The notes under the pieces: model-generated | What the model was told of the DNA's origin: nothing | Seen by the model: the letters and a program-made list of their open reading frames with translations, nothing else | Database searches by the model: none | Program-made: the position numbers and the translations under genes | Source of the DNA: Pseudomonadota bacterium | GTDB lineage: Bacteria > Pseudomonadota > Gammaproteobacteria > JAADHS01 | Length of the DNA stretch: 64,000 bases | Assembly: GCA_021821045.1 (NCBI GenBank) | Contig: JAKACW010000019.1 | Coordinates: 1-64,000 of the forward strand | Direction of reading: 5' to 3' | In this document: piece after piece, positions 110 through 35,106 of the stretch | Layout: each line of letters begins with the position of its first letter | How positions within the stretch are numbered: position 1 is the stretch's first letter

Positions 110-2845
110 CTAGAAATTGGCGCTGATTCCGAAGTTCACCAGCGCCTTGGAAAAGTCGCCCAGCGAAGCGTTCTGCACCGCCACTCCGATAAAATCCTCG
201 CTGCTTAGCGGCTCGCACACGTTTGTTTCGAAATTACACTTGAACACAGGCAGGTTCGAGTCGTTCTTTTGGTAACTCACGCTGGCAAAAATGCGAATTT
301 CGTCGTTGAGTCGGTAGTTCAACGATGCTGAAACACTATAGTTGACGTTCTCACGAATCGTCTCCGCCAAGTTGACGAATTGCGCATAGACATCCTCGTA
401 ACGGTATCGCGTGTAGCCCAGACTGCCGGTCAACCCGGCAAAAATATTGCCGGACAGCCACTTTGTCCCTTGGTAGCTAAATGTCACGCTATCGAACGCC
501 GCGCTCTTGTTTTCTTCACTCTTGTTTACGTTCGACGCCACGCTCACGCTGAACACATCGCCATAACCCCCGGCAAGATTGCGCGACAGTGAACCGGACA
601 GTGTATAGGTTACCGTGTCGAAGAAGTTCGTCGTGGCCGCCGCGTAGTCCCGCATTGAGAGGCTGTAGTTTAGTTTCTCGTCTCGGGCCCAATCCCAACT
701 GCGGTCGAAAGACCAGGTTTCCGTCTCGTTAACGCTCTGCTCGAGTAAAACACCGCTCAACTTGTTGTAAGAATAACGAAGCGTATACAAATCGCTGGGA
801 TCCCCGTAGGTGACAAACGGGTTGTAGTAGTCATTCAAAAAGTCGTAATTGCCGCGGTGAAATGTCACGTAGGATGGATTCCACACAAACCCAAGACGGG
901 TACGGTCGCTGTATTTATAGCGATAAGTCAGACTGAACGACGCATTGCCCGTGTACTCCTCAGCAGGATCCGTCGCGCTGTAATTGCTGTTCGAATCGTA
1001 GCCGATCGAATAACCGACGCTCGTGCTCACGCCGTTAATGGATCGCTGCAAGGCCACCGCGCGTTTCTCGGCGTTCTGTCTTGCGACGGCATCCTCGGTG
1101 GACAGCGCGATGCGCTTGTACTCCGTCAGTGCCTCCTGCTCCTTGCCGAGTTGCTCATATAGGAAAGCCAGTTGTTGGCGCGCGCCAAGATGGTTCGGAA
1201 CGAGTTCAGTTACCTTCTCGAGATCCTTTGTCGCCTCTTCGAGCTGGCCCAGTCGGGCCAGGATGACGCCCGAATAGAAGTGTGCCGCCGGGTCGTTGGG
1301 AGTAAGTTCCAGAAGACGCTGGAACTGGTCATAGGCAGGCCGCAGTTGATTCCGCTCAAATAGCATGGAACCGAGAATATTGGCGTACAGCGGCGCCACG
1401 GATTCCACCTCTTGCGCGCTGGGCTCCAATGCGACGTACACGGACATGGCTTCCGCGGCGGCTTCGAACTTGCCAAGCTGAGTATTGAGCCGCGCAAGAT
1501 TGAGGTAAGTGCGCGGGATGGTCGGGTCGATGGTCCGAACGGCTTCGAATGCGGTAAGCGCTTCGTCGAACAGGCCTTGCTGCATGTAGATGACGCCCAG
1601 ATTAAACTGCGCTTCGACATCACTGGAATTCATCAGCAGCCGGCTCTTAAACGCGTTCTTGTTGGCGGCGACCGTCCGCATTTCGTTGACTTGCGCCCCG
1701 AAAGACTGCGTCAAACGGTCCAAAAACAGCGCGGCCTGGCCGGCCTGGGGCGTGTTGGGACCGTCCCGGACAACCCTGTCCAACTCCCAGACGGCGTCCA
1801 CGTAGTTGTTGCGATCCAGAAACAGCGTTCCCAGTTTCAAGCGGGCATCGAGATTGTTCGGCATCACCCGCAAGGCATGCTCCCATGCCCGCTGCGCGTC
1901 GTCGAGTTGACCGAGCTGTTTGAAAATGTCGCCGGCGAGATTGTTCGCGACAACACTGTCCGGAGAGACTTTCAGCACATCATCCACATACGCTTTAGCT
2001 TGTTCGAGGTTTCCCTCGCGGGTGGCTTGATAAGCTCGCAACAATCCTGATCTCACCCGCGCTTCGTTGTACTTCGGGCCTTCCCGAACCAGCTCCATCA
2101 CCTTTTCCAGCGCCTCGATGGCGTGAGAGTGATCGCCCATTTGTTCGTAAACGTTCGCAAGGTTCAGATAAGCCGTGTCGCTGTTGGGCTCACGCTCAAT
2201 GACTTCCTGGTACACGGCGATCGCCGGTTCGAAACGGCGGGCCAGAGAATAGGCAAAACCCAAATGCTGCAAAACCCGCGTGTCGTCCGGATGATCTTCC
2301 ACCAGCGACTGGAGCAATTGCAGCGAAGTATCCAGATCGCCTCGGGCGGCATAGTCCTTCACCAACACGAGATTCAGACGCTTTTCCGCCTCGATTCCCT
2401 CCGGCGTGTTTGGCGCCGCGTCGGCGACGTAACGATAGTGCGTCAGCGCCTGTTCGACCTGACGGAACTGCTCGAAGAAGTTCCCCACCGACATGCGCAA
2501 TGAAAAATTGTCCGGCGCCAGTTCAACGCTGCGCTGCAGATAGCCGAGCGCTTCTTCGATTGCGTTGCGTTGTAACAATAAGGTTCCCAAACGGTAGTGG
2601 GCTTCCACGTTGGTCGGATCCAGCGCAGTGGCCTGGCGGAACGCTCGCTCCGCCACCGCCGGCTGGCCGGAATCGAAGGCCGCCTTGCCTTGAGCAAGAG
2701 CGTTCAGAGCGCCCTGCTTGTCCTCCGCCGGAGCGAGCTGAGCCTGCGCGACGGGCATCGCGCTCCACCACAAGCCACCCAAAGCCAACGCCAGGCAACT
2801 GGCAAGCACTGCGGAGGGAAAGGCGTTTGTTTTCGTGGCGCTCAT
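110..2845 (-). CDS. TPR protein with C-terminal outer-membrane barrel-like domain
   Basis: 911 residues. A signal peptide ends near residue 36 (hydrophobic run, then AQAQ). Residues about 45-600 are a long series of tetratricopeptide repeats (recurrent A/Y-x-LG and P-x-N/D turns). From about residue 605 the sequence turns into alternating polar/aromatic strands and ends in phenylalanine, the usual BAM signal of outer-membrane barrels. The layout (periplasmic TPR then barrel) recalls export porins such as PgaA, although the barrel here is only about 300 residues. The ATG lies 2 nt after the stop of the preceding outer-membrane protein gene with no clear ribosome site, suggesting translational coupling. 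Probably the exit component of the RND operon; the substrate is unknown. Confidence 0.75.
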   Translation of the reverse strand: MSATKTNAFPSAVLASCLALALGGLWWSAMPVAQAQLAPAEDKQGALNALAQGKAAFDSGQPAVAERAFRQATALDPTNVEAHYRLGTLLLQRNAIEEALGYLQRSVELAPDNFSLRMSVGNFFEQFRQVEQALTHYRYVADAAPNTPEGIEAEKRLNLVLVKDYAARGDLDTSLQLLQSLVEDHPDDTRVLQHLGFAYSLARRFEPAIAVYQEVIEREPNSDTAYLNLANVYEQMGDHSHAIEALEKVMELVREGPKYNEARVRSGLLRAYQATREGNLEQAKAYVDDVLKVSPDSVVANNLAGDIFKQLGQLDDAQRAWEHALRVMPNNLDARLKLGTLFLDRNNYVDAVWELDRVVRDGPNTPQAGQAALFLDRLTQSFGAQVNEMRTVAANKNAFKSRLLMNSSDVEAQFNLGVIYMQQGLFDEALTAFEAVRTIDPTIPRTYLNLARLNTQLGKFEAAAEAMSVYVALEPSAQEVESVAPLYANILGSMLFERNQLRPAYDQFQRLLELTPNDPAAHFYSGVILARLGQLEEATKDLEKVTELVPNHLGARQQLAFLYEQLGKEQEALTEYKRIALSTEDAVARQNAEKRAVALQRSINGVSTSVGYSIGYDSNSNYSATDPAEEYTGNASFSLTYRYKYSDRTRLGFVWNPSYVTFHRGNYDFLNDYYNPFVTYGDPSDLYTLRYSYNKLSGVLLEQSVNETETWSFDRSWDWARDEKLNYSLSMRDYAAATTNFFDTVTYTLSGSLSRNLAGGYGDVFSVSVASNVNKSEENKSAAFDSVTFSYQGTKWLSGNIFAGLTGSLGYTRYRYEDVYAQFVNLAETIRENVNYSVSASLNYRLNDEIRIFASVSYQKNDSNLPVFKCNFETNVCEPLSSEDFIGVAVQNASLGDFSKALVNFGISANF

Positions 2846-32309: not shown

Positions 32310-32383
32310 GGACCGTTTGATTTTCAGAGCAGCTTCCCGGTGGTGAAAAACGTTTGAGGTCGTTAGGGCCCGCGAAGGTATTT

Positions 32384-34231
32384 ATGACGCAACATGACCA
32401 GAAATCACAATTAAAAGAACTTATCGCGAGGGGGAAGGAACAAGGCTATCTGACCTTCCGCGAAGTCAATGATCATTTGCCCGACGACATCGTCGATCCG
32501 GAGCAAATCGAAGACATCATTGCGATGATCAATGATATGGGCATCGCTGTACATGAATTTGCGCCCGATTCCGACTCTTTGATCCTGAGCGACAATGTCG
32601 CTGCGGATGAAGATGCCGCCGAGGAAGCCGCCGCCGCGCTGGCGACGGTGGACGGCGAGTTCGGCCGCACCACCGACCCCGTGCGCATGTACATGCGCGA
32701 GATGGGCACCGTGGAACTGCTGACCCGCGAAGGCGAAATCAAAATCGCCAAGCGCATCGAGGACGGCCAGAATCAAATGCTGTCCGCCTTGGCCCTCTAC
32801 CCCGAAACGATTACGCGCATCCTCGCCGATTTCGACAAGTCGGAGAAGGGCGAAGGACGCATTACCGACATCATCCGCGGCTTCGCCGATCAAGACACCG
32901 AGGAAGTCAACCTCGCGGCCGCCAATGACGAGAGCGCTACCAAGGCGGCGGCGGATGTCGACAGCGACAGCGACGAGGAAGACGAGTCAAGCGGCACCTC
33001 CGACGATTCCGACGAAGCGGTCGGAATCGATATCGAAGAAGCCCGAGTTCGCTTTGCCAAGTTGCGCGAAACCTTCGACGCCATGACGGCGGCGGCCAAG
33101 AAGCACGGCCGCAGCAATGCCAAATGCGCCAAAGCGCGCAAGGACATGGTCGAAGCGTTCATGCAGTTCAAGCTGATTCCGCAACTGACCGACGAGTTGA
33201 TCCGCAACTTGCGTGATTTGGTTGAGCGCATTCGCAGCCACGAACGCGTCATCATGGACATCTGCGTGTCCAGAGCGCACATGCCGCGCAAAGACTTCAT
33301 CACCTCGTTCCCGGACAACGAAACCGACTTGGGATGGCTCGATAAGCAAATCAAAGCCGGTCACAGCTATTCAACGGTGCTGGCGGGCTGCAAGGAAGAC
33401 ATCCTGAAAGCACAAGGCAAGCTGGTGCAGATTCAGGACGAGACCGCCTTGTCGATTTCCGAGATCAAGGAAATCAACCGCAAGGTGTCCATCGGCGAAG
33501 CCAAAGCTCGTCGCGCCAAAAAGGAAATGGTGGAAGCGAACTTGCGCTTGGTGATTTCCATTGCCAAGAAATACACCAACCGCGGTTTGCAGTTCCTCGA
33601 TTTGATTCAGGAAGGCAACATCGGCCTGATGAAAGCCGTGGACAAGTTCGAATACCGCCGCGGTTACAAGTTCTCGACGTACGCCACGTGGTGGATACGC
33701 CAGGCCATCACGCGTTCGATCGCGGATCAAGCGCGCACCATTCGTATTCCGGTGCACATGATCGAAACCATCAACAAGCTCAACCGCATTTCGCGGCAGA
33801 TGCTGCAAGAGATGGGCCGCGAGCCGACGCCGGAAGAACTGGCCGAGCGCATGGAAATGCCGGAAGACAAAATCCGCAAAGTCCTCAAAATCGCCAAAGA
33901 GCCGATCTCCATGGAGACGCCCATCGGCGACGACGAAGATTCGCACTTGGGCGACTTCATCGAGGACACGGCCGTATTGTCCCCGACGGATGTAGCGACG
34001 TTCGAAAGCCTCAAAGAAGCGACTCAGCAGGTTCTGGAAAGCCTTACCGCAAGGGAAGCCAAAGTCCTGCGCATGCGCTTCGGCATCGACATGAACACCG
34101 ACCACACGCTGGAAGAAGTCGGCAAGCAGTTCGACGTCACCCGCGAACGCATCCGGCAAATCGAAGCCAAAGCGCTGCGCAAGCTGCGTCATCCGAGCCG
34201 TTCGGAGCCGTTGCGTAGTTTTCTTGACTAA
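32384..34231 (+). CDS. rpoD: RNA polymerase sigma-70 factor
   Basis: 615 residues from the ATG at 32384 (GAAGG site); the frame opens 30 nt earlier with TTG. Region 1.1 ([21 protein letters not shown]), region 1.2 ([21 protein letters not shown]), an acidic non-conserved region, regions 2.1-2.4 ([36 protein letters not shown]), region 3 ([16 protein letters not shown]) and region 4.2 ([20 protein letters not shown]) are all intact. Primary sigma factor. Its stop overlaps the end of the convergent HNH gene by 4 nt. Confidence 0.98.
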
Positions 34232-34689
34232 TCTTTAGAAAAATTTCGCGAGGTGTCATGGTATGCATCCATGGCACCTCGCTGCTCCGGCGTTTGCTCC
34301 TGCAACACACACTCGGGGTTGTGCTCCTCGGAATGGCAATTGGAGCACAGCAGTACGCACTTGGATGCCTCCTCCATGACCGCCTGCCAGGTTCGATTCG
34401 ATAGCGACCGCAAATCGAGCTGAAATGTCTTTTCCGAAGGTTCCAGATGATGGAACTCAAGCGCCGCGTAGTTCCTCGCATACCCGCAGCGCCGGCATTT
34501 ACCCCCAAGCGCTTTTATAAGTTCGAGCTTCCTACTACGACCGCGCTCTTGCTGAGCCAAGTAGCTCTGATAATGAACATTATTGACGGCGTTCTTGCAA
34601 GCAACCGAACAGAATTTTGACTGGCGGCCGACTAGCGGCCTTGCGCATCCAATACACTTTTTCACTGTCGTCCCGATCACCGCTGTCAT
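34228..34689 (-). CDS. HNH endonuclease-like protein
   Basis: 153 residues from the ATG at 34689. It begins with a Cys cluster (CIGCARPL, then FCSVACKNA), a likely zinc finger, and then an HNH core: [17 protein letters not shown] and CSNCHSEEH, with Cys pairs binding a structural zinc and His-His as the catalytic site. The 3' end overlaps rpoD by 4 nt and its start lies about 107 bp from the intron-split tRNA on the other side. HNH proteins include group I intron homing enzymes, but free-standing ones have many roles, so a homing link is only a possibility. Confidence 0.8.
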
Positions 34690-34726
34690 CAATTAATTGC
34701 GGCAGTATAAGCGATCAAGAACCTGC

Positions 34727-34795: not shown

Positions 34796-35106
34796 GGGCC
34801 TGTAGCTCAGTCGGTTAGAGCAGTGGACTCATCAAAATGGTGCGAGCGCGCCGAAATGCGCGTTTTGAACGGGATGAATTCAGGGAACCCTTAACAGTTC
34901 GGCTGATGGCAACCCTGAGCCAAGCCAGGAGTGCACTCCTGGACGGTGCAGAGACTACCTGAGAACTTAAGCGTTCTTAATAACAGGCATGAGCGTCCCG
35001 CGCCCTAGCAACCCGGTTGAGGGCGATGAGATAGTCCGCTCCCGATAGAAATATCGGGGACACGTGAATCCATTGGTCGAAGGTTCGAGTCCTTCCGGGC
35101 CCACCA
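34796..35106 (+). tRNA. tRNA-Ile(CAU) interrupted by a group I intron
   Basis: Exon 1 is 34796-34832 and exon 2 is 35067-35106; joined they give a 77-nt tRNA with encoded CCA. The 7-bp acceptor stem (GGGCCTG with CGGGCCC, one G-U), D arm (GCTC/GAGC), anticodon stem (GTGGA/TCCAT) and T arm (GAAGG/CCTTC) all pair. The anticodon loop is CTCATAA, anticodon CAT. Position just after rpoD matches ileX of E. coli, so the minor isoleucine tRNA (lysidine-modified by TilS) is favoured; elongator methionine tRNA is the alternative. The split is directly after the third anticodon base. Confidence 0.9.
34833..35066 (+). ncRNA. self-splicing group I intron (Azoarcus-like)
   Basis: 234 nt. Helices readable by eye: P1, exon CAU with internal guide GTG at 34840-34842 and the required U-G pair; P2, 34846-34851 with 34858-34863; P3, CGGGA with TCCCG (34870-34874, 34996-35000); P4, TTCAGGG with CCCTGAG (34879-34885, 34913-34919); P6a, CCAGGAG with CTCCTGG (34925-34942); P7, GACTA with TAGTC (34953-34957, 35032-35036); P8, CGCCCT with AGGGCG (35001-35006, 35020-35025); P9, CCCGATA-GAAA-TATCGGG (35041-35058). 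The last intron base is G (35066). The 3-nt guide GTG and the insertion in a tRNA-Ile(CAU) anticodon loop are as in Azoarcus BH72. No internal open frame encodes a homing enzyme. Confidence 0.92.

Follow-up and report, generated by a model that had tools for sequence, protein, structure and literature searches.

It is difficult to explain how tRNA introns without an open reading frame spread between bacteria, since such introns have no endonuclease of their own. This question is raised by the locus described here. In the window, by which we mean the whole stretch of 64,000 nucleotides that was analysed, a tRNA-Ile(CAU) gene is split by an intron of this kind and a free-standing ORF of the HNH type lies beside it. 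We ask what the intron is, whether it could be spliced, to which known introns it is related and whether the neighbouring gene could have contributed to its spread.

The split gene has a length of 311 nt. The preliminary description of this DNA stated that 234 nt directly after the CAU anticodon have to be removed for the tRNA to fold, and the coordinates of this segment are exact (Table 1). Neither in the window nor in the unspliced 311 nt does ARAGORN detect an ordinary tRNA; the joined exons are folded by the same program as a 77-nt CAT tRNA, the product that had been foreseen. The intron is thus located between tRNA bases 36 and 37, directly 3′ of the anticodon. With introns allowed, ARAGORN proposes a tRNA-Gln(CTG) with the junction moved by two bases, and it makes odd assignments for the split tRNAs of the relatives as well. 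We reject the Gln(CTG) reading. In group I introns the 5′ exon ends in U, a rule which this reading violates, and the uninterrupted orthologues disagree with it as they read GACTCAT/AATC at the junction (the slash marks the intron position). Therefore the CAU anticodon is the right one.

Several observations agree with a tRNA-Ile(CAU) that is a substrate of TilS. The acceptor stem of the spliced tRNA has the pairs C4-G69 and C5-G68, which are TilS marks on the tRNA-Ile2 of Escherichia coli. A TilS-family protein is present in the genome, and the two other CAT tRNA genes are those of the elongator and the initiator tRNA-Met. An intact second tRNA-Ile(CAU) gene, in combination with the lack of a spliced product from this one, had been named as an observation that would refute the proposal, and we find no such gene among the 42 tRNA genes of the genome assembly. 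This absence is not absolute, since the assembly (140 contigs, 98.5% complete) also lacks genes for Ile(GAU), Ala(UGC) and Trp(CCA), and a second copy could sit in a gap.

Table 1. Features of the split tRNA-Ile(CAU) locus; positions refer to the window.
Feature	Position	Strand	Description and evidence
rpoD, conserved gene upstream of the tRNA	32354..34231	+	ORF; also upstream in carriers and at control loci
Free-standing zinc-ribbon/HNH ORF	34231..34692	-	154 aa from TTG at 34692, or 153 aa from ATG at 34689; divergent
5′ exon of tRNA-Ile(CAU)	34796..34832	+	37 nt, anticodon CAT at its end; spliced product folds; agrees with relatives and intronless orthologues
Group I intron	34833..35066	+	234 nt, last base G, without ORF; RF00028 72.3 bits, E = 2.1e-16; covariation on 75 relatives
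Guide GUG	34840..34842	+	Forms P1 with the CAU anticodon, with a U.G pair at the splice site; P1 pairing counts
P3, 5′ strand	34870..34876	+	Partner 34994-35000; 99.2% of cells paired
P7, 5′ strand GACUA, guanosine-binding helix	34953..34957	+	Partner 35032-35036; invariant in 75 sequences
P7.1 and P7.2	34958..34987	+	P7.1 34958-34961/34984-34987; P7.2 34963-34966/34973-34976; 100% of cells paired
P9.0 and P9, followed by the terminal G at 35066	35038..35065	+	Compensatory changes in both
3′ exon of tRNA-Ile(CAU)	35067..35106	+	40 nt, CCA encoded; spliced fold and relatives

The interrupting sequence is a group I intron, as had been proposed. The covariance model RF00028 (Intron_gpI), suggested earlier as a check, matches positions 34820-35058 over its full length and clearly above the gathering score of 50. 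This is the sole Rfam match in the window, and the split tRNA-Ile intron is the only group I match in the genome of 4.5 Mb. For the secondary structure we aligned 75 introns of tRNA-Ile(CAU), each flanked by five exon bases at either end, and named every helix, giving 71 pairs. Standard pairs are formed in 97.3% of the cells. In 42 of the 71 pairs both sides have changed, compared to 25.6 pairs in shuffled alignments, none of 500 of which reached the observed value, and when the partner is slid by one column pairing falls to about 40%. P1 is unpaired in four rows, which are alignment shifts. The core helices P3, P4, P6, P7 and P8 are all present in the related sequences; P4 is nearly and P7 fully invariant so that no covariation is obtained from either.

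In the window copy 69 of the 71 named pairs form, the two mismatched ones being located in P9.0 and P2. The 5′ exon ends in a U which is paired with a G of the guide, and the last intron base is a G; the GUG guide, the G-binding P7 and the terminal G had all been recognised correctly before. The helices P1 to P9 listed in the preliminary description are likewise complete; the list had, however, overlooked two further helices, P7.1 (CCUG/CAGG) and P7.2 (GAAC/GUUC), both located in the segment that separates the 5′ strand of P7 from the 3′ strand of P3. None of the 75 aligned relatives lacks these hairpins, and compensatory changes are strong in P7.2 (for example GC in 49, AU in 22 and CG in 4 of the introns). 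Close to the 3′ end, P9.0 (35038-35040/35063-35065) encloses P9 (35041-35047/35052-35058), which is capped by a GAAA loop. The insertion point is the same in the 131 orthologous introns whose boundaries were found; none of these introns, all at most 360 nt long, contains an endonuclease gene.

The split tRNA-Ile(CAU) is almost certainly a host gene interrupted by a group I ribozyme, and judging from the sequence we predict that it splices itself to the 77-nt tRNA. Group I splicing follows a two-step pathway which is initiated by guanosine. After transcription the intron would fold into P1 to P9 plus P7.1 and P7.2. The guide would pair with the anticodon, and a guanosine held in P7 would attack after U36. 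The freed U36 would then attack after the terminal G, whereby the exons would be joined, and C34 of the resulting tRNA could subsequently be modified by TilS. We infer these two steps and their efficiency from the established chemistry of group I introns. Alternatively, the ribozyme could be decayed and defective in splicing, and the organism could rely on another tRNA-Ile(CAU) gene that is missing from the assembly. The tRNA genes lacking from the assembly and the two mismatched peripheral pairs would fit this explanation, but we regard it as very improbable as the core elements are all intact and under covariation, the exons still form a complete tRNA and the assembly, nearly complete as it is, holds no second copy.

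To which introns is this self-splicing candidate related? It had been described as naturally related to the Azoarcus ribozyme, to be placed in subgroup IC3. The tRNA-Ile(CAU) IC3 intron of Azoarcus sp. BH72 is indeed alike in the host tRNA, the site after the anticodon, the GUG guide, the small size and the lack of an ORF. We made the sequence comparison through the tRNA-Ile(CAU) intron of locus L141, which we regard as being of the Azoarcus type; it has the same insertion point and the same guide and is devoid of P7.1 and P7.2. In contrast, the window intron carries both hairpins, belongs to another clade and shows no blastn similarity to L141. Queried with the L141 intron, blastn leaves the window intron undetected, and in the 369 genomes of the class it returns only short core matches, in six genomes. 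In the phylogenetic tree L141 groups with introns of tRNA-Leu(UAA) and tRNA-Arg(CCU), whereas the window type forms a separate clade with a support of 95/97, although the tree has long branches which make its deepest split provisional. Because of this separate clade and the two hairpins which L141 lacks, the proposed kinship with the Azoarcus ribozyme is not upheld. Since L141 and the window type fall into separate clades, at least two intron lineages appear to have settled in the same tRNA-Ile site.

The clade of the window intron also holds introns in tRNA-Thr(UGU) (loci L002, L095, L097 and L099) and in tRNA-Lys(CUU) (L007); a further member (L133) probably resides in a tRNA-Arg(UCU) gene. 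ARAGORN misplaces these junctions, and the hosts of the non-Ile introns were read by eye from the exons. The introns in tRNA-Thr(UGU) and tRNA-Lys(CUU) are also inserted after base 36, with guides altered to fit the anticodon. Within this clade the guide has thus changed together with the anticodon of the host.

The assignment to subgroup IC3 is doubtful as well, since P7.1 and P7.2 are present, the clade is separate and such hairpins are described for introns of other kinds. Introns of subgroup IC3 have no P7.1 and P7.2 between P7 and P3 and group with the tRNA-Leu, tRNA-Arg and Azoarcus-like introns; the window type has these hairpins and groups elsewhere, the latter provisionally in view of the long branches. 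P7.1 and P7.2 together with P9.0, P9.1 and P9.2 have been described for IA2 introns (PMC4227781), and the cyanobacterial rRNA intron L2593, which has a short P2, carries P7.1 and P7.2 too (PMC1995217). The window intron shares the two hairpins that mark subgroup IA and has no extended P9 of the IA2 type (P9.1 and P9.2), as P7 is followed only by P9.0 and a single P9 hairpin. The IA2 introns of phage Twort and of the IStron as well as L2593 are thus alike in having P7.1 and P7.2 between P7 and P3, a likeness taken from published descriptions (PMC4227781, PMC1995217), but their hosts are protein or rRNA genes. The cyanobacterial and proteobacterial introns of tRNA-Leu(UAA) and tRNA-Arg(CCU) are likewise ORF-less and inserted in the anticodon loop of bacterial tRNA genes, but they differ in host, guide and clade and are without P7.1 and P7.2. 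At another locus (L132, G611:C13) we noticed a group I intron which also has extra helices after P7 and which apparently interrupts a protein-coding gene rather than a tRNA gene.

It could be argued that the window intron is a classical IC3 intron of the Azoarcus type which acquired the P7.1/P7.2 insertion secondarily. The insertion point and the GUG guide common to L141 and the window intron, and the GAAA loop in P9 and usually also in P2, would be in line with such a history. We consider it unlikely: in the tree L141 groups with the Leu and Arg introns and apart from the clade of the window type, the deep split not being beyond doubt owing to the long branches, the L141 query does not detect the window intron, and a shared guide is explained by two independent occupations of one site. 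In our view an intron lineage distinct from the Azoarcus-like one is the better reading.

This lineage is widespread and patchy. Using the 311-nt gene as query, we found the split tRNA-Ile in 23 of the 369 class genomes, distributed over 17 families and including the window genome. The matches of the carriers are full-length with 72-100% identity, and many other genomes of the class have the uninterrupted gene. RF00028 matches are present in 55 of the 369 genomes and exceed the cut-off in 40. An exact pattern is matched by at least 120 named records; among the matches listed are Lysobacter, Luteimonas, Rhodanobacter, Dyella, Dokdonella and Variovorax and further Azonexus, Woeseiaceae, Granulosicoccus and Algiphilus. 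The named carriers are Gammaproteobacteria with betaproteobacterial lineages. Thus the organism does belong to the class of the named carriers, as stated before, but with so many carriers the copy is no notable extension of the known range. Group I introns in tRNA-Arg and tRNA-Leu genes of Gammaproteobacteria are already in print (PMC4853749). Those of Maribeggiatoa and Thiomargarita, in tRNA-Arg(UCU) and tRNA-Leu(UAA), reside in other tRNAs than the window intron, and structure and subgroup were not determined in that paper. An earlier publication on the present intron was not found in a literature search which had most subscription papers outside its reach. The split gene also occurs in a metagenome-assembled record titled Actinomycetes (L190), which has the gammaproteobacterial type and is probably mis-binned.

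Much of the history of the intron looks vertical. The preliminary description correctly placed the tRNA gene downstream of rpoD. In 98 of 131 carriers rpoD is located upstream on the same strand. The same holds for the upstream position at 37 of the 44 loci used as controls, among which 42 have an intact uninterrupted tRNA-Ile gene, so that the place downstream of rpoD is the ancestral one of this tRNA gene. Intron distances and rpoD distances are correlated (Spearman 0.55; none of 500 permutations as high), which suggests that much of the descent was vertical and that losses recurred; horizontal moves may have occurred in addition. In the two relatives from the same family, G001 and G002, the tRNA-Ile(CAU) gene is intact; G002 carries a related intron in tRNA-Thr(UGU), and G001 has an intron in tRNA-Leu(UAA). 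In viral contigs no match to the exact pattern was found that would point to a viral source. One genome with a full copy has elsewhere a second, truncated copy (L021, G003:C149, about 1655-1823), which consists of the 3′ half of the intron, starting inside the P7.1 region, and the 3′ exon; an integrated element may end at this point.

The divergent ORF between rpoD and the tRNA gene, which lies 104 nt from the latter, was missed in the preliminary description. It matches the HNH endonuclease family phrog_2255 of PHROG (E = 9.4e-23), and the match to Pfam HNH stays below the cut-off (E = 0.0015). The predicted structure has a mean pLDDT of 87. Its matches in the PDB are weak (E of 0.13 or higher), Cap5 and T4 endonuclease VII being the best of them, and a firm structural relative was found in the PDB neither by structure nor by sequence search. 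A search of plasmids returned one weak match. Homologues adjoin 20 of the 124 intron-bearing tRNA-Ile loci whose flanks are long enough to show them, the window and remnants included, and none of the 42 intact intronless loci (Fisher 0.0024, a test that ignores shared descent). Among the 369 whole genomes only two have homologues, the window genome and G310; both are carriers, and the 346 non-carrier genomes have none (Fisher 0.0037, again ignoring shared descent). All 18 orthologues that could be measured have the same position and are divergent, at 25-231 nt from the tRNA. The longer homologues are 46-65% identical, the catalytic and zinc-binding residues are conserved, and pN/pS is about 0.16 for the closest intact pair. 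Other copies are fragments or contain stop codons; such a mixture of intact and decayed copies is the expected cycle of a homing endonuclease.

The family has relatives in viruses. A tRNA gene is found within 1.5 kb of the homologue in 69 of 80 viral contigs, at a median distance of 35 nt; in 53 contigs the spacing is 150 nt or less. Among 35 of these contigs, 22 have this spacing of at most 150 nt, where tRNA density would lead one to expect about 5 (an upper bound, the clustering of tRNA genes being ignored). In Felix O1 related HNH genes (35% identity) are likewise found inside a tRNA array, but its annotation indicates no interruption in these tRNA genes. The placement in viruses thus ties the HNH family to tRNA genes in general; in the chromosomes analysed here it is tied to the intron-bearing tRNA-Ile in particular. 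Two other RNA elements were seen in viral contigs. L346 has a group I intron (1002-1218, minus strand; RF00028, 59.4 bits) at a distance of about 280 nt from an HNH homologue, with an apparent 3′ half of a tRNA after the intron, and L337 has a match to permuted tmRNA (2086-2337, minus strand; RF04321, 53.8 bits) inside a tRNA array.

What could be the role of the HNH gene? As the most likely reading, although we would place it slightly below an even chance, we suggest that it encodes a homing endonuclease able to cut intronless alleles of tRNA-Ile. The intron would protect the donor allele from cutting, and the repair of the cut allele would copy intron and HNH gene together. On the other hand, the HNH gene may have nothing to do with the intron and may be a phage-derived free-standing endonuclease that was inserted beside a tRNA gene, the link reflecting shared descent in a few lineages. 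We consider this a real possibility, if a less than even one. The phage homologues do lie beside many different tRNA genes, most of them uninterrupted, and the HNH distances fit the intron distances (rho 0.78) and the rpoD distances (rho 0.76) about equally. A chance neighbour, however, does not readily account for the contrast between intron-bearing and intronless loci, the lack of homologues in all non-carrier genomes and the identical position and orientation in every measurable orthologue.

The homing reading can be framed more specifically. To our knowledge collaborative homing has so far been described in phages. The known case is F-CphI together with the psbA intron of cyanophage S-PM2, for which cleavage was shown (PMC6083498, PMC3984707). 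There, as in the window, a free-standing endonuclease gene adjoins an ORF-less intron and is tied to the intron-bearing allele; the absence of the HNH gene from the intronless loci and from the non-carrier genomes conforms to this pattern. The two cases differ in that F-CphI is an Endo VII-type enzyme whose target is a phage protein gene, whereas in the window a chromosomal tRNA gene and a putative HNH endonuclease are involved. We tentatively propose, with somewhat less than even confidence, a chromosomal form of collaborative homing in which a tRNA-targeting HNH enzyme shared with phages, blocked by the ORF-less intron, helped the intron to spread through the Gammaproteobacteria and decays after fixation. 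An earlier report of an HNH gene beside a tRNA intron was not found by a literature search, most subscription papers lying outside its reach.

In summary, the intron itself adds a new member to a group that is already known and common, and it is the pairing with a tRNA-associated HNH gene that sets the locus apart. The clade to which it belongs illustrates how changes in a short guide adapt one ribozyme scaffold to several tRNAs, and it offers a natural set for studying ribozyme specificity and the function of P7.1 and P7.2 in a compact tRNA intron. With the locus and its orthologues, moreover, an enzyme and a target are both specified, and genomes with and without the intron occur in natural pairs, so that the question how such introns spread becomes directly testable.
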